Positions 491 through 12,105 of a DNA stretch of 64,000 bases are shown piece after piece. The DNA lies in contig CANLQK010000003.1 in the NCBI GenBank assembly GCA_947493255.1, positions 1-64,000 on the forward strand, written 5' to 3'. The notes under the pieces are model-generated. The model was not told the DNA's origin. It ran no database searches and saw nothing but the letters and a program-made list of their open reading frames with translations. The position numbers were made by a program, and so were the translations under genes. The stretch comes from an uncultured Paracoccaceae bacterium (GTDB lineage Bacteria > Pseudomonadota > Alphaproteobacteria > Rhodobacterales > Rhodobacteraceae). Position 1 is the stretch's first letter, and the number at the start of each line of letters is the position of its first letter.

Positions 491-3400
491 ATGCCAATTT
501 CGACCACCCAAGACACTTCCAACTTATATCCTTGGACGCAAAAGACCTTGGAGCGGGACGAAAACGGTTTTTTGATCGGCGAAGTTGTGACCTTCGATGA
601 TGGTCGCATCCTCACGAAAACCGTGACAGATGGTGTGAAAACACTGGTCACATGGTCCGATCCGAACAATGCCACAAACTGGGCTTCGATATCGACCACG
701 TTTAATCCAACGACAGGTCAAAAAACTGCGCAAACACGTACAATGGATGATGGTCGCATCATTTCTACCACGTTTGATGTAGGTGTGATTTCTGAACGCG
801 TCATTACGGATGTTGCGAATGAATTCAATTGGTTGAGCACGACCAGCAGTTACGATGCGCAGGGTCGGATATCATCCTCTGTTGTCAGCCATGACGATGG
901 GCGAACGTCAACTACGACTTACGTGAATGGCGTCTTGGACCAGCGCACCGTGGCAGACACTGACGGCGCATTTATCTGGACGTCAACAGTATACGATTGG
1001 AACCCGGTAGACGGGCAACTTTTGACGGTCACGACGACGATGGATGATGGAACGATCATCGTCACAGGGCCCGCTTTGGGGCCGGAGGAGTCTACCGTTA
1101 TTCGCACTGATACAAAGGACAAATTCCTTTGGGAGAGCCGTGAAACAACATATGACGCGGCCGGCGCCATTGTTCAGCGTACCGTTGAATATGATGATGG
1201 ACGTATCGAAGTGGCAGAATTTACGGGTGGCGTGCGCAGCGAGACGACCATCAGTGATGTCGATGATGTGAAAGCTTGGGAAACGGTTGAGCTGACCTAT
1301 GACACCAAAGGGCAACTGACAGATCGCACCACAATCTATGATGACGACCGCGTGGTGACATCCACATACCAAGACGGTGTTTTGGCGACGAGGACGGTCG
1401 TTGATGTTCTGGATGCTTATAACTGGTTAGGTTTTTCCCTACGATTCGACGCCAAGGGCCGACTTGTAGAAAAAATTATTGGCTTTGATGACGGAGTGGT
1501 CAAAACCACGGCTTACCGCGACGGTGTTATATTTGGCTCTATCAAGTTCGACTACGAAGATGTCCATGCATGGGAATCCATAAGCACTGCTTACGGCCTG
1601 GGTGGCAGCGAGTTCGCTACCTTAACTGTGATGGATGATGGCTCTCGGATCTACACTGATCCACGTGGTCTGGAGATTATAACAGGTGGGACGCAAGCAA
1701 GTGCCGTCGAGGATCAGAGCTCTACCCTGACCACATCGGGCGCAATCACATTTGTAGACGGCTTCAGACAGGAGACTGCTTTTGACGCTCAAACGGTCGT
1801 GGGCACGAACGCTTACGGCACCTTTACCCTGCTTGCCGATGGCACATGGACCTACGCGGCGCTGAACGCGCAAACGGACATTCAAGCGCTGGGTGTTGGC
1901 GATACCCTGACCGACAGTTTTACGGCCCTGTCCGTGCAAGGCATAGAAGTTGTCGTAACAGTCACCATTGAAGGGCGCACAGATTCAGCACCGCTTTTCA
2001 TGAGTGATACGGAAATTGTCATTGGCGGCGCGGGCAATCTTGTGACGGCAGCACCGGTTCTTGATGTCCTTTCGCTCTTCACCAACGATAACAATCCGTT
2101 TTCTTACATCGGCGGAACGACTGGCTCTGCATTTTTCACGCCAGATTTCGTATTGGACACGCTCTCGCTCTCGGACTTCAACAATCTGGATACTGTCGGG
2201 GATCACAGTTGGACGTTCATCGTGCAAAACGATGACCTGTCAGAAACCACCACCGGGACCGTCACGTTAACCGTCGCGATGAACCACGATTTCGGCGTGG
2301 ATTATGACGGATCGACGAACGCGCTCGGGTCTGTGATTACCGGATCAAGTGCGCAAGACACGATCCTTTTCGGGGACAACGCAATTGGTGTGACCCTGAA
2401 TACGCTTGCAGGGGATGATGCGATTACCTTTGGGAGCAGGGCAGGAAACTCCGTGCAAGCCATTGATGTGTTCAGCGGCGAAGGCGATGACGTCATTACA
2501 TTTGGAACAGAAGCCGGCTATAACGCTGGCCAAATTCAAATTGATGCGGGAACGGGGAACGACACCATCACCTTTGGCGATAATGCCGGAAAGGACGCGA
2601 TTGCGGCCCCAGGTTTTGACGATGGGCTGATCAGCATTGTCGCGGGCGACGGGACCGACACGATTACCTTTGGCACCCTAGGGCTCGGCGCGCGTCTGTC
2701 GGTTGATGCCGGCGCAGGGGACGATCATGTGACAATCGGTTTTTCAACAAGTGGCACCAACGACGCAACGGTAATAGGTGGCCTCGGCGATGATAGCCTG
2801 ACCTTTGGCGACAACTTTGGCACGGGCGGGGACTCTGAAGTGTCTGGTGGTGACGGCAATGATACCCTTACCTTTGGCCACGGGGTCGGTCGTTTCGCAA
2901 ACTTTGATGTGACAGGTGGGGACGGCGATGACATCATCACGTTCGGCGTTGCTGCGGGGCAAAGTGCAGGCACTTTCAATGTGTTTGGCGGGGACGGCAA
3001 TGACGACATCACCTTCGGTGACCATGCCGCAGCAGGCGCATCAGCCTTCAACGTTAATGGCGGCAGTGGCAACAACACCATCACCTTTGGCGATATAACG
3101 ACGGGCTCTTTACCTGGCAACGTGAGTATCACAGCCGGTGACGGGGATGACACCATCGTCACGGGGTTATCATTGAACCAGGAAGTGAGTAACAGCCTAC
3201 GGATTGATACTGGCGACGGCACAAATTCGGTTACGATTGGCGACAACCAAGAAGAGCTGACCGTCACCGGTGGGTCTGGTGTGGACACGATAAGCGTTGG
3301 CGCAAATACTGGCAGTACAAGTCACGTAACGGTCATTGATGGCGGCGGCGGCAGCGATGTCATCTCGATTGGGGAAAACTCTTCTTTCCTGTCGGTTGTC

Positions 3401-4813
3401 GGCGGTGCGGGTGACGATGTGATTAGCGTTGCGGATCGATCAACGGCACAAACAACAAACGTCCAATTTTCAGTGGTTTATGCGGGTGTCGGCGCGGATA
3501 CGATTACAATCGGCACGACAGGGTTCACCCAAATTTTTCTTGGCCAAGACACCGACCAAGACAGTCTGACGTTTACTGGCGGATTTAGAGGTTTGACCAT
3601 CTATGACTGGACGACACACGACGCGCCCGTCACATTTGAAAACAGCGGGACGGTGGTCTGGTACGAGGCGCGTTATTTGCCGAGTGGGTGGCCTGCTCTT
3701 GTCTTGGTAAACGACGCGGGCCAATCGATAACGTTTGATGGAGCTGCTGGCGCTGACCCTGACCTGTTGGTCAGCGGCCTGAACCTGTTTGATAATTCAG
3801 CCCCCGTCGCGCTTGACCCAAATCCGGGCTTCGGAGAGGTCGGCGTTGGCAATCTGTCGTCTCCGTACTCATTGGATTTGCAAACCCTGTTTTCAGATGC
3901 GGATACGGGCACGGTGAACTTTGAAACCATGACAGTCACCGCAACGGGGTTGCCGACAGGGTGGACCCTGACCAACAGCGTCCTTCAGCGCGACGCTGAA
4001 ACGTCGATTGCCACGTTAGGCACCCATGAAATCACGCTGACGGCGACGGATGCGTCGGGTGCCTCGGGGCAGATCACCCTCGATCTCGTCATCGCGCATG
4101 AACATGATTTCGGCGACAACTTTGGCAGATTATCTAGTGCAGGCACCACCGTCGGAAGCATCGGCGACGACACGCTTGTCTTTGGAGCGAACACCGGACG
4201 GTCGGACCGTGGGTTTGTTCAGGTCGATACCTACGCTGGCGAAGACACACTGACCTTTGGCGCGTCCGCTGCAACCAACGAAGGCACGCTAATCGTGAAT
4301 TCTGGCGATGACGATGACTCTATCACGTTCGGTGATCGCGCTGCGCAAGGCGATGGCAACCTGACCGTCAACAGTGGCAGCGGCAACGATATCGTGGAGT
4401 TTGGTGATTTCGCGGGTGAGTTCAACCCGTTCGCGATGCGTATCAATACAGGAACAGGCGACGACATCGTTATCTTTGGTATTGAGGCCGGCAATGAAGC
4501 GGCTGACTTCAAGATCGACCTCGGCCTTGGGGCTGACCGCGTGATCTTTGACGAAAACGCTGGACGTATCACGGTCGACCTTGGTCTGGACAGCGATGTT
4601 GATACGCTGATCTTCGCTGGAACGTTTTCAGAAGGCATCACCGATATCACAATCGAAAACTGGGTGTCAGGCATTGATTTGATCGATGTGGACGACAGCC
4701 TGTTGTGGCTGATCCACGATGATGGCACGGACACGACGCTGAGCAATGGGACAAGCGATTTGACGTTCATCGGTATCACAGGCCTGACGGACGTGGATGA
4801 TTTCTTGATCTAA
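491..4813 (+). CDS. Large repetitive RTX-like surface/secreted protein (1440 aa)
   Basis: No gene-level name is recognised. Residues about 15-400 contain roughly eight degenerate repeats of about 48 aa, each with a DDGR-like turn, a DGV segment, a conserved W and a YDxxG motif. About 400-490 resembles a VCBS domain (GTFTLLADGTWTYA). From about 610 to 1060, and again from about 1210 to 1400, there are glycine/aspartate-rich units of about 25 aa built on GDGDDxITFG, like RTX calcium-binding nonapeptides but with a fixed ITFG ending. A cadherin-like stretch (about 1100-1205) separates the blocks. There is no N-terminal signal peptide and no cysteine, and the protein is strongly acidic. These fit export by a type I system using a C-terminal signal, as in RTX adhesins, but no T1SS genes lie in the window. 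Function is inferred only. Confidence 0.75.
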   Translation: MPISTTQDTSNLYPWTQKTLERDENGFLIGEVVTFDDGRILTKTVTDGVKTLVTWSDPNNATNWASISTTFNPTTGQKTAQTRTMDDGRIISTTFDVGVISERVITDVANEFNWLSTTSSYDAQGRISSSVVSHDDGRTSTTTYVNGVLDQRTVADTDGAFIWTSTVYDWNPVDGQLLTVTTTMDDGTIIVTGPALGPEESTVIRTDTKDKFLWESRETTYDAAGAIVQRTVEYDDGRIEVAEFTGGVRSETTISDVDDVKAWETVELTYDTKGQLTDRTTIYDDDRVVTSTYQDGVLATRTVVDVLDAYNWLGFSLRFDAKGRLVEKIIGFDDGVVKTTAYRDGVIFGSIKFDYEDVHAWESISTAYGLGGSEFATLTVMDDGSRIYTDPRGLEIITGGTQASAVEDQSSTLTTSGAITFVDGFRQETAFDAQTVVGTNAYGTFTLLADGTWTYAALNAQTDIQALGVGDTLTDSFTALSVQGIEVVVTVTIEGRTDSAPLFMSDTEIVIGGAGNLVTAAPVLDVLSLFTNDNNPFSYIGGTTGSAFFTPDFVLDTLSLSDFNNLDTVGDHSWTFIVQNDDLSETTTGTVTLTVAMNHDFGVDYDGSTNALGSVITGSSAQDTILFGDNAIGVTLNTLAGDDAITFGSRAGNSVQAIDVFSGEGDDVITFGTEAGYNAGQIQIDAGTGNDTITFGDNAGKDAIAAPGFDDGLISIVAGDGTDTITFGTLGLGARLSVDAGAGDDHVTIGFSTSGTNDATVIGGLGDDSLTFGDNFGTGGDSEVSGGDGNDTLTFGHGVGRFANFDVTGGDGDDIITFGVAAGQSAGTFNVFGGDGNDDITFGDHAAAGASAFNVNGGSGNNTITFGDITTGSLPGNVSITAGDGDDTIVTGLSLNQEVSNSLRIDTGDGTNSVTIGDNQEELTVTGGSGVDTISVGANTGSTSHVTVIDGGGGSDVISIGENSSFLSVVGGAGDDVISVADRSTAQTTNVQFSVVYAGVGADTITIGTTGFTQIFLGQDTDQDSLTFTGGFRGLTIYDWTTHDAPVTFENSGTVVWYEARYLPSGWPALVLVNDAGQSITFDGAAGADPDLLVSGLNLFDNSAPVALDPNPGFGEVGVGNLSSPYSLDLQTLFSDADTGTVNFETMTVTATGLPTGWTLTNSVLQRDAETSIATLGTHEITLTATDASGASGQITLDLVIAHEHDFGDNFGRLSSAGTTVGSIGDDTLVFGANTGRSDRGFVQVDTYAGEDTLTFGASAATNEGTLIVNSGDDDDSITFGDRAAQGDGNLTVNSGSGNDIVEFGDFAGEFNPFAMRINTGTGDDIVIFGIEAGNEAADFKIDLGLGADRVIFDENAGRITVDLGLDSDVDTLIFAGTFSEGITDITIENWVSGIDLIDVDDSLLWLIHDDGTDTTLSNGTSDLTFIGITGLTDVDDFLI

Positions 4814-5969: not shown

Positions 5970-6422
5970 TTACCAGCTGTTATATCCGAGATATTTGCCC
6001 GACATTTCAACTTTCACGCGGTCCCCTTTGGGGTTTTCGACCCGAGTGACAGACATGTCAAAATCAATCGCAGACATGATGCCATCACCGAATTTTTCTT
6101 GGATCAACGCCTTCAAGGTTGGGCCATAGACACCAACGATTTCATAAAAGCGGTAGATGCATGGGTCGGTCGGAACCGCCTGTTCCCAGATCTTGGTGGG
6201 GCTTTCGGACAGCACGCTTTCGGCCTCTTGCGGCAGGCCCATGACCTTGACCATGAGCGCGGCCTTTTCTGCTGGAAAAGCGTTCATGCCCATGGCGGCT
6301 GAATGGGTCCAGACAGGTGACATGTCGATCTTTTCGGCAATACCTTCCCATGTCATTCCAGCCTGTTTCTTGGCCGAGAGGATCATGGCTGTGACGTCTT
6401 CTTTGGTCATCATGTCTGTCAT
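5970..6422 (-). CDS. cynS: Cyanase (cyanate hydratase)
   Basis: Cytoplasmic enzyme (EC 4.2.1.104) that reacts cyanate with bicarbonate to give ammonia and CO2 by way of carbamate. The 150 aa length fits the family. The N-terminal helical domain (MTKEDVTAMILSAKKQAGMTWEGIA) is followed by the catalytic C-terminal dimerisation domain with YRFYEIVGVYGPTLKALIQEKFGDGIMSAIDF split by the conserved Arg, Glu and Ser of the active site, all present. I chose the ATG at 6422 (MTDMMTKED) over the track start because AAGGA lies at proper spacing before it. It is last in an operon with a NrtABD-type transporter, which implies cyanate import. Confidence 0.95.
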   Translation of the reverse strand: MTDMMTKEDVTAMILSAKKQAGMTWEGIAEKIDMSPVWTHSAAMGMNAFPAEKAALMVKVMGLPQEAESVLSESPTKIWEQAVPTDPCIYRFYEIVGVYGPTLKALIQEKFGDGIMSAIDFDMSVTRVENPKGDRVKVEMSGKYLGYNSW

Positions 6423-6453
6423 TTGTGTGGTGTCCTTCTTATGTATTGATTTC

Positions 6454-6933
6454 TTAAAGTCCAAGCTGGGTCAGGTCGGGGTGATCATCGGGGCGTGGCC
6501 CGGGCGCATCCCAATGAAACAAGCGTTCCGCCTCTGTGATGGGCACATCGTTGATCGAAGCGTGGCGCTTTGCCATGTAGCCAAGGGCATCGAACTCCCA
6601 GTTTTCATTACCGTGCGCGCGAAACCACTGGCCCTCGGCATCGTAGTATTCATAGCAAAAGCGCACGGCGATTTTGTCTTCACTATGGGCCCAGATTTCT
6701 TTGATCAGGCGATACCCATTCTCGGTGGCCCATTTGCGGGTCAGAAATTCTTCCACTTCTGCACGCCCGTTCAAAAACTCTGAACGGTTGCGCCACTTGG
6801 TATCAGGCGTATAGGCCAGTGCGACTTTGGCCGGGTCACGCCCGTTCCAAGCGTTTTCAGCCATCCGCACTTTTTGCACTGCGTCGTCAAAGCTGAACGG
6901 GGGCACCGGGGCGCGGCGTGGCTGGCTTATCAT
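6454..6933 (-). CDS. NTF2-like (DUF1348 / SnoaL-like) protein in the cyanate operon
   Basis: A 159 aa protein of the nuclear-transport-factor-2-like fold, DUF1348 family. Recognisable features are the helix with [10 protein letters not shown], the [13 protein letters not shown] segment, [14 protein letters not shown] and the [21 protein letters not shown] core. Members have no firmly established reaction. Its start overlaps the stop of the upstream ATPase gene by ATGA and cyanase follows 31 bases later, so it is translated with the cyanate import and hydrolysis genes. A role in cyanate, carbamate or nitrile metabolism is an inference from position only. The fold call is fairly secure; the function is unknown. 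Confidence 0.85.
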
Positions 6934-7832
6934 GTCTTGACCGCCTGTAATAATGGTTGCTCTTCCACCGCATCATCCTGCGTTTTGTCGATGCGAACTG
7001 TTTCAGGGGAATGGGTCTCGTCCGGCGCGCTTATTTGGCCCGCCAATTCTGCCGAGCGTTTCCCAAGAAACTGCACCAGATGATTGCGAATGGCGTAGTA
7101 GTTCGGGTGCTCCACAATATCGGTGCGCATGCGAGGTCTTGGAATGGTGATTTCTACACTTTCGGCGACGCGTGCCAGCGGTCCGTTTGTCATCAACAAG
7201 ATGCGATCGGCCAGCAGAATTGCCTCGTCAATGTCGTGGGTGATCATAAAGACCGTTTGGTCGGTCCCGCTCCATACCTTCAGCAATTCTTCTTGAATGG
7301 TGCCGCGGGTCAGCGCGTCCAGAGCGCCAAATGGCTCATCCAGCAACAGCAGTTTGGGTTCATTGGCGAAGGCCCGGGCGATGGACACGCGCTGTCGCAT
7401 ACCACCGGACAATTGGCTTGGCTTTCGGTGGATGGCGTCACCCGACAACCCAACTTTTTCCAAAAATGCGATTGAATGGTCCTCGACCTGTTGTTTGGTC
7501 CAATCGGGGAACCGCGCGGCCACCCCGAAGGTCACATTCTTCAAGGCCGTCAGCCAAGGCAGCAGCGAATAGTTCTGGAAGACCACGCCCCGATCAAGGC
7601 TAGGTCCCGACACTGCAAAGCCGTCCATCTTGACGACACCTTGGGTTGGCTCGGAAAGGCCAGCCAGGATGTTCATTATGGTCGACTTACCGCAACCTGA
7701 ATGCCCCAAGATACAAACGAACTCGCCCTTTTCGATGCCAAAGCTGGCGTTTTCGAAAACCGTGAACTCGCCGCCTTTGCCGTCCGGATAGCGCTGGGTC
7801 AGTTTTTCAATGCTTAGAAATGAATTTGCCAT
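6930..7832 (-). CDS. cynD: Cyanate/nitrate-type ABC transporter ATP-binding protein
   Basis: Cytoplasmic ATPase of a NrtD/CynD/TauB-type importer, 300 aa. Walker [10 protein letters not shown], signature [15 protein letters not shown], Walker [13 protein letters not shown] and the H-loop THDIDEA are all intact. A C-terminal extension of about 50 residues after the ABC domain ([18 protein letters not shown] and onward) is as seen in nitrate-type ATPases. It sits between the permease and the NTF2-like gene and overlaps the latter by ATGA. The cyanase at the operon end makes cyanate the likeliest substrate. Nitrate or nitrite cannot be excluded from sequence, as the families are close. Confidence 0.85.
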
Positions 7833-7841
7833 AAGACCACC

Positions 7842-8678
7842 TTATTCCACGTAGGCCACGCGCCGCTGGAGCAGGCCGAAGGCCGCGTCCAGCAACATGC
7901 CGACAACGCCGATCATGAGAATTGAGAAAATGACGGAGGTCAGGTCGAGGTTGTTCCACTCGTTCCAGACGTAATACCCAATCCCGGTTCCGCCCACGAG
8001 CATCTCGGCGGCGACAATCACAAGCCAAGCGATCCCGATGGAAATGCGCATACCCGTCACGATGGTGGGGGCGGCGGCAGGTAGAACGACTGTAAAGGCT
8101 GTTTTGAAAGCACCGAGTTCATGGGTGCGCGCCACGTTCACCCAGTCTTCGCGCACGCCCGCCACGCCAAACGCAGTGTTGAGCAACATCGGCCAGATCG
8201 AACAGATGAAGATGACGAAAATGGCGGAGGCTTCGGAGTCTTGAATGATAAAAAGTGCCAGCGGCATCCACGCGAGTGGAGAGATCGGGCGCAGAACCTG
8301 AATGAACGGGTTGAGAGCCTTGTAAGCCACCGACGACATGCCGATCAGAAACCCGAGCGGGATCGCAATGATCGCTGCCAGAAAATAGCCTGTCAGGACG
8401 CGGTAGATCGAATAGCCGATCTGAATGCCAATGCCCTTGTCGTTAGGCCCCGCATCATAAAACGGGTTGGACAACTCTTGCCAAGCTTTGACAGCCACTT
8501 CGCTGGGAGGCGGCACACCAGCTTTCGCCGTGCCCGCCCCTGTCAGAAGTTCATACTCGGTCAGCTCGCCCGTGTTGACCGCTTGTGCGGAAATCGACAG
8601 TTCCCACACAAGCAACCCAACAATCAGAAGTGCAATCGACCAGATCGCTGCCCGCTTGTTTTCTGACAAAAGCTCCAT
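7842..8678 (-). CDS. cynB: Cyanate/nitrate-type ABC transporter permease
   Basis: Inner-membrane permease of the NrtB/SsuC/TauC class, 278 aa. The first transmembrane segment is AAIWSIALLIVGLLVWELS. About five more follow, with the cytoplasmic EAA-type loop (ELGAFKTAFTVVLPAAAPTI) that contacts the ATPase. A periplasmic insert after TM1 carries LLTGAGTAKAGVPPPSEV, usual for NrtB-like proteins. The start codon overlaps the stop of the upstream binding-protein gene (TGATG), so the two are translationally coupled. It works with the binding protein and ATPase of the same operon. Confidence 0.88.
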   Translation of the reverse strand: MELLSENKRAAIWSIALLIVGLLVWELSISAQAVNTGELTEYELLTGAGTAKAGVPPPSEVAVKAWQELSNPFYDAGPNDKGIGIQIGYSIYRVLTGYFLAAIIAIPLGFLIGMSSVAYKALNPFIQVLRPISPLAWMPLALFIIQDSEASAIFVIFICSIWPMLLNTAFGVAGVREDWVNVARTHELGAFKTAFTVVLPAAAPTIVTGMRISIGIAWLVIVAAEMLVGGTGIGYYVWNEWNNLDLTSVIFSILMIGVVGMLLDAAFGLLQRRVAYVE

Positions 8679-10069
8679 CAGTCGCCTGCTTTGATAGCAA
8701 AGCTGTCGACGTAAGCTTCTGGCTGATCAGGGTCGAAAGTTTTGCCCATAATCGTGTGCGACTTGTAGTTTTCTGCCGGTGCGTCGTAGCCAAGATCGGT
8801 CATGACTTTGCGCGCATCGGTAGCCAGATAGACCTGCTCTGCGATGCCTTTGTAATCCACTTCGCCTTCGATATAGCCCCACCGCTTCATCTGCGTCAGG
8901 ATCCACACGCCCATGGATTGCCATGGGAAGGGGTCAAAATCGATGCGGTCAGGTACCCGCTGTACGGCGCCCAGACCATCGGCATAAGTGCCCGTAAGAA
9001 CCTGTTCGATGACGGTGACCGGTTGGTTGAGGTAGTTCGTCGGCGCGATGGCCTCCGAAATCTCTGACCGGTTGTCAGGGTTGGACGCGTATTGCGTGGC
9101 GTCGATGATCGACTTGAGCAATGCGCCATAAGTATTGGGTAGTTCAGTCGCGAAGGACTGGGGGGCCGCGAAGGCACAGCAGGGGTGACCTTCCCAGATT
9201 TCCTTGGTGAGGATGTGAATAAAGCCGATACCCTCATAAACCGCACGCTGGTTGAACGGATCGGGCGACAGGTAGCCATCAAGGTTACCAGCGCGCAGGT
9301 TGGCGACCATCTCTGGCGGGGGCACAACGCGGATCTGGATATCCACATCGGGGTCCAGCCCGAATTCAGCCACGTAGTAGCGCAGCAGGAAGTTATGCAT
9401 GGAGTATTCAAATGGAACACCAAACGTGAAACCTTTCCACTGGCTTGGGTCACGTTTGTCTAGGTGCTCGTTAGAAAGCACAATCGCCTGCCCGTTGATG
9501 TTTTCCACGGCGGGCATGATGTAGGGCTCAGCGACCGAGCCAGCACCCATCGTCATTGCCAACGGCATAGGTGTCAGCATGTGGGACGCGTCGTATTCAC
9601 CTGAAAGCGATTTGTCACGGGCAACAGCCCAGCCTGCAGTTTTGATAACTTGGGCGTTCAAACCGTAGCGTTCATAAAAGCCCAGTGGCTGCGCCATGAT
9701 GATCGGCGTGGCACAAGTGATCGGCACAAAGCCAATGTTCAGGTCGGTCTTTTCCGGCGGACCAAGATCATCCAGAATATTGGCCACGGCCTGTTTGACA
9801 GGAAAGACCGAGGCAAGAGCTGCCGCGAAAGACGTGCCCCCCAACATCCCCATGAACGATCGGCGCGCGATGTCATTCTGGCCGAACATCGACCGGACGA
9901 CCGCACTTTCGACGGCGCGTTCCATCATCTGCTCAGATGACATCGCTTCTGGCTCTGAATGGTTCTTATCGTGGCCGTGACCGGTCAAGCAGGTATCACA
10001 CCCGCAATCGGCACCGTGTCTCAGATCGGTCTTATCGGAAAATGGGTTTCCAAGGCTTTTTATGGTCAT
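8678..10069 (-). CDS. cynA: Cyanate/nitrate-type ABC transporter substrate-binding protein (Tat-exported)
   Basis: Periplasmic binding protein of the NrtA/CmpA family, 463 aa and first gene of the operon. The binding domain starts with DLNIGFVPITCATPIIMAQPLGFYERYG, split by typical NrtA motifs, and includes GYLSPDPFNQRAVYEG. A twin-arginine signal (ARRSFMGMLGGTSFAAALAS) begins only near residue 68. Before it lies an unusual extension rich in Cys and His (about residues 18-36, CGCDTC then HGHDKNH) that would stay in the cytoplasm until export or be cleaved with the signal. Its role is unknown; metal binding is a guess. Cyanate is inferred as ligand from the cyanase in the operon. Confidence 0.85.
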   Translation of the reverse strand: MTIKSLGNPFSDKTDLRHGADCGCDTCLTGHGHDKNHSEPEAMSSEQMMERAVESAVVRSMFGQNDIARRSFMGMLGGTSFAAALASVFPVKQAVANILDDLGPPEKTDLNIGFVPITCATPIIMAQPLGFYERYGLNAQVIKTAGWAVARDKSLSGEYDASHMLTPMPLAMTMGAGSVAEPYIMPAVENINGQAIVLSNEHLDKRDPSQWKGFTFGVPFEYSMHNFLLRYYVAEFGLDPDVDIQIRVVPPPEMVANLRAGNLDGYLSPDPFNQRAVYEGIGFIHILTKEIWEGHPCCAFAAPQSFATELPNTYGALLKSIIDATQYASNPDNRSEISEAIAPTNYLNQPVTVIEQVLTGTYADGLGAVQRVPDRIDFDPFPWQSMGVWILTQMKRWGYIEGEVDYKGIAEQVYLATDARKVMTDLGYDAPAENYKSHTIMGKTFDPDQPEAYVDSFAIKAGD

Positions 10070-10191
10070 GTCCGTCTCCTGTCATTGGTTGACAACAAAG
10101 TTCCACGCCAAACAGCAGCAAGGAAGACCTTCTGCCAAATGCCTTCAAAGCGGGTTGGGTCTGAATTTATTGGTTAATTTTTGAGCGAACG

Positions 10192-10224
10192 TTACGAATT
10201 TTCGTAAGTTACGGGATTTCGTAA
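10192..10224. promoter_or_regulatory. Two tandem palindromes between cynA and the NtrC-type regulator
   Basis: TTACGAATTTTCGTAA (10192-10207) is an inverted repeat with 7-base arms and a 2-base spacer. One base later TTACGGGATTTCGTAA (10209-10224) repeats the outer half-sites with a diverged centre. The period is 17 bases. The pair lies 37 bases before the regulator's ATG and about 123 bases upstream of the cynA start, well placed as an enhancer-type site for cynA and an autoregulatory site for the regulator. The Fis-type C-terminus of the regulator is the likely binder; this is inferred. Confidence 0.7.
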
Positions 10225-10260
10225 TTTGGTAGAGCCCACAGAGACCTCATCATCAGTTCT

Positions 10261-12105
10261 ATGCTTGATGAAACCGAATCCGCCCATCTGATCGCCCATC
10301 ATCCGATGCCCACGATCATGTTCGACACCAATGTCGACAAGGTCGTGGCCGCCAATGACGCGGGGCGTGCCTTGCTAGGGGAAGCAACGCTGTCGGGGCC
10401 ATTGTCCAGCCGGATGGAAAATGACTATGCCGCTGCTGCTGTATTTTTCGATGCAGTTGCGCATTACGGTACCTATGTCGACCGTAGCCTCTCGTTGATA
10501 GGGGCGAACGGCGTTGCTTTGCGGCTTGAGACCCATGGTGCCCAACTCAAATCGGGCTTGGTGATGCTCAGCTTTCTGGACCTCGACAAACATGACCGTC
10601 GCAATCAGCAAGCGGAACGGGAAGCCCACCAAAATGCGGGGTTGTCCCAATGGCAAAATATCTATGGTTTCTTTCGCGAGGTCGAAGCCCAGAACCATCT
10701 GATCCTCGAGGCGGCTGGTGAAGGCATCTACGGCATAAACGCGAAAGGACAGGCCACATTCGTGAACCGCGCAGCGCAAGAGATGTTGGGCTGGTCGTCC
10801 GACGATTTGATCGGGCGCGAATTACATTCGATCATCCACCACAAACGATTATGCGGCGATCACTTTCCCGCCCATGAATGCCCGATCTACAAATCTTTCC
10901 GCCGCGACGAGACCATGCGCGTGGATGATGATGTGTTCTGGCGGAAGGATGGCAAACCGATCCTTGTGGAATATGTCTCAACCCCGATCTACGACCACGA
11001 TGTGCTGGCTGGGGCCGTGGTGATTTTTCGAGATGTAACCGAACGAAAGGAAAACGAACGCAGGCTGCGTGATGCGTTGGCGCAGGTCGAAGACCTGAAG
11101 GTAAAGCTGCAGCAGGAAAACGAATACCTTCTTACCGAAATCCGGTCCGCGCGGTCCCACACCGGCGTGATTGGCGTGTCACCCGCGATCAAATCGCTGA
11201 ACGCCCAGATCGATCTTGCCGCGCGAAGTGATGCACACGTGCTTGTTTCTGGCCCGTCTGGGTCCGGCAAAAACATGACCGCCTCGGCGATCCACGAAGC
11301 AAGCGATCGTCAGCACCGACCGCTGGTGCGCATCAACTGTGATCAGAAGAAGGCGGCAGATCTGGAAGCGGAGCTCTTTGGGTATCGCCGCGGCGCCTTT
11401 GCGGGGGCCGCGCGGGATGTGACGGGCAAATTGCTCATGGCACACAATGGGACCCTGCATCTAGACGAAGTCGCGACCCTACCTGCAAAAGTGCAAGCCA
11501 GCCTATACGATGTTCTGCAAGCGGGCCATTTCCGGCGTCTAGGCGACGGCGCTGATATTCCCGTTGCGGCCAAAGTCGTCGCTACTACAAGCTATGATCT
11601 GCTGGCGGAAGTGCGCGCTGGGCGGTTCCGTCAAGACCTCTATTTCGCCCTGAACGTGCTTCCGATTATGACCGAACCGCTCATGAACCGGCCCGAAGAC
11701 ATCCCTTATCTCGCGCGGCATTTTCTTGATCGCACGATGCAGCGTCTGCGCTTGCCAAAGATGACGCTGACCAAAGCCAACATCGAAACGCTGCAATCCT
11801 ATGGCTGGCCAGGAAATGTCCGCGAGTTGGAAAACGTGATTGAACGTACGGCCATCCTTGCGCAGGGCGGCCGTCTACAGTTCGACATCCAAAGAGGTCA
11901 GTCAGACGCCCCAATAGAAACAAACCGAGTGCTGACCCAGAAAGAACTGCGGCAGTTGGAAATCAAAAACTTTGAAGCTGCACTGCGCCGTGCAAAGGGA
12001 AAGATTTCCGGCAAATCCGGTGCGGCGGCGATCCTCGGACTTGCCCCAACAACGGCATATTCAAAGGTCAAGTCGCTGGGCATCCAGGTGGACCAATTCT
12101 CATAG
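10261..12105 (+). CDS. NtrC-family transcriptional activator with PAS domain and altered GAFTGA loop
   Basis: A 614 aa regulator: divergent N-terminal sensory region (1-110), PAS domain (about 143-260, with a Cys/His motif CGDHFPAHECPIY), coiled linker, AAA+ domain (about 300-530) and Fis-type helix-turn-helix at the end (GAAAILGLAPTTAYSKVKSLG). Walker A is GPSGSGKN (331-338) and Walker B LHLDEV. The sigma54-contacting loop, normally GAFTGA, is GAFAGA at 378-383. In this family the Thr is critical for sigma54 engagement, and R. capsulatus NtrC, which lacks the motif, works with sigma70. It is divergent from the cyanate operon and probably controls it. There is no receiver domain, so a ligand signal through PAS is likely. 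Confidence 0.88.
   Translation: MLDETESAHLIAHHPMPTIMFDTNVDKVVAANDAGRALLGEATLSGPLSSRMENDYAAAAVFFDAVAHYGTYVDRSLSLIGANGVALRLETHGAQLKSGLVMLSFLDLDKHDRRNQQAEREAHQNAGLSQWQNIYGFFREVEAQNHLILEAAGEGIYGINAKGQATFVNRAAQEMLGWSSDDLIGRELHSIIHHKRLCGDHFPAHECPIYKSFRRDETMRVDDDVFWRKDGKPILVEYVSTPIYDHDVLAGAVVIFRDVTERKENERRLRDALAQVEDLKVKLQQENEYLLTEIRSARSHTGVIGVSPAIKSLNAQIDLAARSDAHVLVSGPSGSGKNMTASAIHEASDRQHRPLVRINCDQKKAADLEAELFGYRRGAFAGAARDVTGKLLMAHNGTLHLDEVATLPAKVQASLYDVLQAGHFRRLGDGADIPVAAKVVATTSYDLLAEVRAGRFRQDLYFALNVLPIMTEPLMNRPEDIPYLARHFLDRTMQRLRLPKMTLTKANIETLQSYGWPGNVRELENVIERTAILAQGGRLQFDIQRGQSDAPIETNRVLTQKELRQLEIKNFEAALRRAKGKISGKSGAAAILGLAPTTAYSKVKSLGIQVDQFS

Follow-up and report, generated by a model that had tools for sequence, protein, structure and literature searches.

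The 64,000-nt stretch of DNA analysed here (the window), from an uncultured Paracoccaceae bacterium, encodes a regulator of the sigma-54 activator type whose loop 1 reads GAFAGA, and this raises the question of which form of RNA polymerase, if any, such a protein would serve at the cyanate (cyn) genes beside it.

A CynF-type regulator divergent from the cyn genes

Profile searches match the regulator to Sigma54_activat (8.7e-51) and PAS (2.5e-15), and a Fis-like HTH can be read from the sequence at its C-terminal end. The gene diverges from cynA, cynB, cynD, a DUF1348 gene and cynS (Table 1), an arrangement that recurs in the orthologues for which neighbouring DNA was available, and because of this divergent position from the cyn genes the regulator is the counterpart of the cyanate regulator CynF, whose domain order and putative binding sites it also shares. 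In Pseudomonas pseudoalcaligenes CECT5344, CynF is likewise divergent from cynABDS and, going by its description, is a Fis-family protein of the sigma-54 type; it is essential for cynABDS expression, and a sigma-54 promoter has been predicted there (PMC6627978).

The DUF1348 (SnoaL-like) gene between cynD and cynS is retained by most relatives. In several Roseobacter relatives cynS is 47-57% identical to the window copy, against 82-90% for cynABD, which may reflect either faster evolution or replacement of cynS. Elsewhere in the window (491-4813) lies a 1440-aa ORF with many GDD-rich repeats, by its sequence similar to a secreted calcium-binding repeat protein.

Table 1. Positions of the features discussed (numbered from the first letter of the window).
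Feature	Position	Strand	Remarks
cynS, cyanase	5970..6464	-	Cyanate_lyase 6.2e-35; likely start near 6422
DUF1348 (SnoaL-like) protein	6454..6933	-	conserved in operon
cynD, ATP-binding protein	6930..7832	-	
cynB, permease	7842..8678	-	
cynA, substrate-binding protein (NMT1_2)	8678..10069	-	domain match
TTTGAAGGCA element	10140..10149	-	weakly conserved; candidate part of present cynA promoter
AATTAACCAATAAATTCA block	10162..10179	-	conserved; IHF-like (WATCAANNNNTTR with mismatches); fixed distance from palindromes
Palindrome TTACGAATTTTCGTAA	10192..10207	.	cynA-proximal putative CynF site; conserved in orthologues of both groups
Palindrome TTACGGGATTTCGTAA	10209..10224	.	second putative CynF site; 17 bp register
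CynF-type regulator gene	10261..12105	+	614 aa; ORF and domain matches
Regulator domain order			N-terminal part, PAS (146-262), AAA+ (304-541), Fis-type HTH at C-terminus
Walker A GPSGSGK	11251..11271	+	residues 331-337; invariant Lys kept
Loop 1 motif GAFAGA	11392..11409	+	residues 378-383; GAFTGA in sigma-54-type orthologues
Walker B LHLDE	11455..11469	+	residues 399-403; kept, Asp included
Arginine-finger segment RFRQDLYFALN	11623..11655	+	residues 455-465
PLMNRPEDI	11677..11703	+	LMNR here; LRER in sigma-54-type orthologues

Loop 1 and the arginine fingers

The original prediction read GAFAGA in place of GAFTGA at residues 378-383, and translation of the underlying nucleotides (ggcgcctttgcgggggcc), in frame with the regulator ORF, bears this out. 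Orthologues of 88-92% identity also carry GAFAGA, encoded by several different Ala codons, which excludes a sequencing error as its source; in the family at large the position drifts. The residue that follows Walker A is Asn in the window protein and Ser in the near orthologues. The first arginine finger, R457, is retained, whereas the position of the second (R168 in PspF, R299 in NtrC1) is occupied by A463. We take R457 and position 463 to correspond to PspF R162 and R168, and the six residues from R457 to the lost arginine equal the PspF spacing. This second finger contacts the gamma-phosphate and keeps loop 1 raised (PMC7175178), and changes to GAFTGA, to its Phe and Thr above all, mostly abolish sigma-54 activation (PMC3162934). 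Measured against a bEBP, then, the protein has the AAA+ Sigma54_activat domain with Walker A and Walker B, and lacks both an intact GAFTGA loop and the full pair of arginine fingers. As the Walker motifs are kept while the loop motif and second finger are changed, the regulator should bind ATP yet should not act as a sigma-54 remodeller, and this combination of residues agrees with a protein for which ATP binding would be needed and hydrolysis would not.

Could such a protein simply be a relic of sigma-54 loss on its way to becoming a pseudogene? Drift at loop 1 position 4, at the arginine finger and at LRER is what decay might produce, but the ORF is full length, Walker A and B are kept, and so are the putative DNA sites, family-wide. 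Moreover, dN/dS between the window gene and orthologues of about 88-92% identity is about 0.04 in the AAA+ domain (0.04-0.05) and lower still in PAS (0 to 0.034), one orthologue (L028) having been left out because an indel invalidates its value. These ratios indicate strong purifying selection on the regulator gene, which has lost its loop 1 motif and been kept nonetheless, as befits a sigma-54-independent bEBP; they contradict decay, which we regard as highly improbable.

Absence of sigma-54 from the host genome

The host genome (G000; 3.36 Mb, 99.8% complete) gave no match to PF04552 (Sigma54_DBD), TIGR02395 (rpoN_sigma) or PF04963 (Sigma54_CBD), models that do find rpoN in positive controls such as E. 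coli and Caulobacter. A bEBP would be expected to have rpoN in its host, and this one does not. Beyond the failed search, gene order offers positive evidence that rpoN was lost from its ancestral place: lptA, lptB, hpf and ptsN are consecutive in the host, with 201 bp from lptB to hpf, whereas in other Alphaproteobacteria all ten of the rpoN loci compared have lptB next to rpoN, and eight have hpf on the opposite side. Since the strain has no rpoN, the rpoN-mutant test put forward with the original prediction is impossible here.

The genome encodes six other proteins of the sigma-54 activator type. None of the five that were read in sequence (NtrC, NtrX, two more response regulators and an RtcR-like protein) has an intact GAFTGA, in keeping with the absence of rpoN; in the sixth the alignment is gapped at the motif. 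The RtcR-like protein (L060, G000:C2:60028) keeps SFTG in loop 1 despite the sigma-54-less genome. Two relatives in the genus (G006 and G014) do have rpoN, located elsewhere than between lptB and hpf. In G014 it (L069) adjoins an IstB-type transposon ATPase, recognised by eye, and may possibly have been reacquired. Our coverage of the literature, which was incomplete, turned up no paper that describes either the loss of rpoN from Roseobacter or the present form of CynF.

One orthologous locus in two states

Orthologous loci came from named genomes and from searches across the family and the class. Three duplicates were removed, as was a locus whose upstream sequence was too short, which left 78; 55 are from Rhodobacteraceae and 23 from outside the family. 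Of the latter, 22 combine GAFTGA and the second arginine finger with a -24/-12 element that scores at least 19.7 of 21.4, with shuffle p no greater than 0.01 (for example TGGCACGGCCCTTGCC in L034). Among the former, the second finger and the -24/-12 element are absent throughout (55 of 55), and 53 lack GAFTGA as well, their loops showing A, P, S, R, E, V, N and others; the remaining two have GAFTGA only. The two groups part at a single branch of the protein tree (support 99), so that the Fisher p of 2e-17 measures association rather than independent events, and the cross-table of 78 loci amounts to about two such events.

One Rhodobacteraceae orthologue (L013), 91% identical to the window protein, has GAFTGA in a genome with no rpoN match, which suggests that Thr has been restored at a position free to drift. 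A second (L076) keeps GAFTGA in a genome with rpoN, and is without the second finger and the -24/-12 element. Given these two, a single Thr-to-Ala change is not the point: the loop position drifts, many residues occur there, and the Ala of the window protein is one of them. Outside the family, L118 has GAYPGA and no -24/-12 element, retains the second finger, and comes from a genome with rpoN (G617, which carries 10% contamination); it seems to have set out on the same transition independently.

Of the Rhodobacteraceae examined that carry the locus, about a quarter have rpoN and most do not. A regulator that still activates sigma-54 polymerase through a tolerated loop variant might be imagined on the strength of that quarter. 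Against this stand the loss of the second finger in every family member, the absence of a -24/-12 element from all 55 whether or not rpoN is present, and, in the host itself, the lack of rpoN and the adjacency of lptB and hpf. For this host such a reading is refuted unless rpoN lies elsewhere and is missing from the assembly, and we give it hardly any credence. Among the Rhodobacteraceae genomes checked, motif and promoter loss are independent of the presence of rpoN, and since rpoN-bearing members also have the altered form, loss of rpoN cannot have been the direct cause in every lineage.

The DNA upstream of cynA

No -24/-12 promoter had been seen upstream of cynA in the original prediction, and two analyses of positions 10070-10260 uphold this: TGGCAC-N5-TTGCW has no match there at up to two mismatches, and the best weighted score is 15.0 of 21.4, by a measure for which the 22 of 23 outgroup loci serve as positive control. 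The -24/-12 element that a bEBP would have at its target is therefore missing here. Some Rhodobacteraceae loci score 16-17.7 (shuffle p down to 0.015). Near relatives of three loci with a GG-N10-GC match (L016, L017 and L025) do not share it, and it was judged to be due to chance.

What the two groups share is a set of putative binding sites. The two upstream palindromes of the window are perfect, tandem copies of TTACG-N6-CGTAA, an arrangement read from sequence that would be expected of a sigma-54-independent bEBP of the R. capsulatus NtrC type, and in the outgroup such sites, often three, lie upstream of the -24/-12 element. There the proximal site is 53-98 bp from the -24, and the distances cluster near 54, 65, 76-78 and 90, the helical stepping that DNA looping would lead one to expect. 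By comparison, all 27 loci in the window's own group have the palindrome 130-132 bp from the start of cynA, a constancy that partly reflects relatedness, and in the other Rhodobacteraceae measured the distance is 141-156 bp.

This geometry bears on whether the regulator might instead be mainly a repressor or a non-activating, TyrR-like DNA-binding switch that acts on cynA or on its own gene and is released on signal. Autorepression is likely in any case, the second palindrome ending about 36 bp before the regulator start codon, and TyrR and Caulobacter NtrC, with loops defective or missing, also repress (PMC3162934; PMC10274813). However, the spacing between the palindromes and cynA is constant, the conserved promoter-side blocks lie downstream of the palindromes and are not covered by them, and the studied orthologue is an essential activator (PMC6627978), a role that we carry over to the window protein by analogy. 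We therefore consider repression as the main function unlikely, and favour activation of cynA.

An anchored alignment made in search of the present promoter yields a weak TTT..AGGCA / AAATTTTAGGC element and the IHF-like block, and does not discriminate between readings as a -24 relic, an NtrC site or a -10 region. The AATTAACCAATAAATTCA block may be an IHF site, and the TTTGAAGGCA element is possibly part of the present cynA promoter. The IHF-like block is apparently in opposite orientations in the two groups of Rhodobacteraceae, and the AAATTTTAGGC element lies some 20 bp nearer the palindromes in the window group.

A consensus scan of the same interval (10070-10260) found no sigma-70 promoter upstream of cynA, which would suit a regulator that works with an alternative sigma factor (ECF, RpoH or another). 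On the other hand, the known relatives that do without sigma-54 use sigma-70, and we know of no alternative sigma factor that the conserved promoter-side blocks fit. An alternative sigma factor thus seems quite improbable to us, and sigma-70 is the sigma factor that we favour.

A former sigma-54 activator

Taken together, the lack of rpoN, the family-wide loss of the second finger and the accompanying loss of the -24/-12 element, set against orthologues that keep loop motif, finger and -24/-12 element, strongly support sigma-54 independence of the regulator. That part of the original prediction holds, and on a wider footing; its emphasis on the single Thr-to-Ala change does not. We infer, by elimination and by analogy with R. 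capsulatus NtrC, that CynF of the Rhodobacteraceae is a former sigma-54 activator that now most likely activates the housekeeping (sigma-70) polymerase at cynA. Its ancestor would have been an ordinary sigma-54 activator bound at TTACG-N6-CGTAA, remodelling sigma-54 polymerase at the -24/-12 element of cynA; that element, the Thr of GAFTGA and the second arginine finger would have been lost early in the Rhodobacteraceae. The present protein has kept the same putative sites and probably still binds ATP, but should no longer remodel sigma-54 by means of hydrolysis. Its assembly on the two tandem palindromes is most likely governed by a PAS signal together with nucleotide binding, and once in place there it would recruit or activate sigma-70 polymerase at cynA, after the fashion of R. 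capsulatus NtrC. The broader proposal, that activator function, promoter and, in most lineages, the sigma factor disappeared together while the sites were kept, CynF becoming a position-rigid activator of the housekeeping polymerase with ATP binding and without hydrolysis, we hold to be about evenly balanced.

Restoring Thr alone in the regulator should do nothing. The shift of a ring ATPase from sigma-54 to ordinary polymerase has so far been seen in a few isolated proteins, several with loop deletions; here one regulator, operon and set of sites can be compared in its two states across dozens of genomes. The border between the states is sharp and intermediates exist, so that the transition can be put to the test. 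With L076 and L118, the order of steps from sigma-54 to sigma-70 activator could, if our reading is true, be reconstructed from natural orthologues of one operon. The label 'sigma-54-dependent' is often wrong for such proteins in Rhodobacteraceae.

Comparison with known systems

Relative to CynF of CECT5344, where a sigma-54 promoter is predicted at cynA, the window locus is missing the motif, the second finger, the -24/-12 element and rpoN. A mechanistic parallel is R. capsulatus NtrC, which belongs to the same order and the same AAA+ class and has no sigma-54 contact motif; as cited in PMC10274813, it works with sigma-70 and needs ATP binding but not hydrolysis (Cullen 1996; Bowman and Kranz 1998). 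On the same secondary account it is a response regulator with loop 1 deleted, whereas the window regulator is PAS-controlled and has a full-length loop 1 with point substitutions and a lost second finger. Caulobacter NtrC is also alphaproteobacterial, without GAFTGA and active at sigma-70 promoters, but it has a loop deletion and its host retains rpoN (PMC10274813); because mutants of this protein are reported to promote some sigma-54-dependent genes (PMC12421884), a missing motif alone is not absolute proof of sigma-54 independence in rpoN hosts.

HupR, TyrR, DhaR and VpsR similarly have the sigma-54 activator fold, are loop-defective and make no use of sigma-54, but differ in N-terminal domains, targets and loop changes (PMC3162934). 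Within the Rhodobacteraceae, Francke et al. (2011) drew attention to Jannaschia sp. CCS1, which has no sigma-54 and in which Glu replaces position 4 of GAFTGA in one putative activator, and proposed sigma-70 dependence (PMC3162934); the orthologue L091, with GAFEGA, is comparable, the likeness to CynF being one of loop residue and drawn from one remark about one protein.

Sigma-54-independent AAA+ members are thus a known kind (NtrC and HupR of R. capsulatus, TyrR, DhaR and Caulobacter NtrC). The variant described here is of the PAS type, with a full-length, drifting loop, a lost finger and an ancestral promoter class still visible in orthologues, and what is new is that one orthologous locus lets the loss be traced through regulator, promoter and sigma factor alike.
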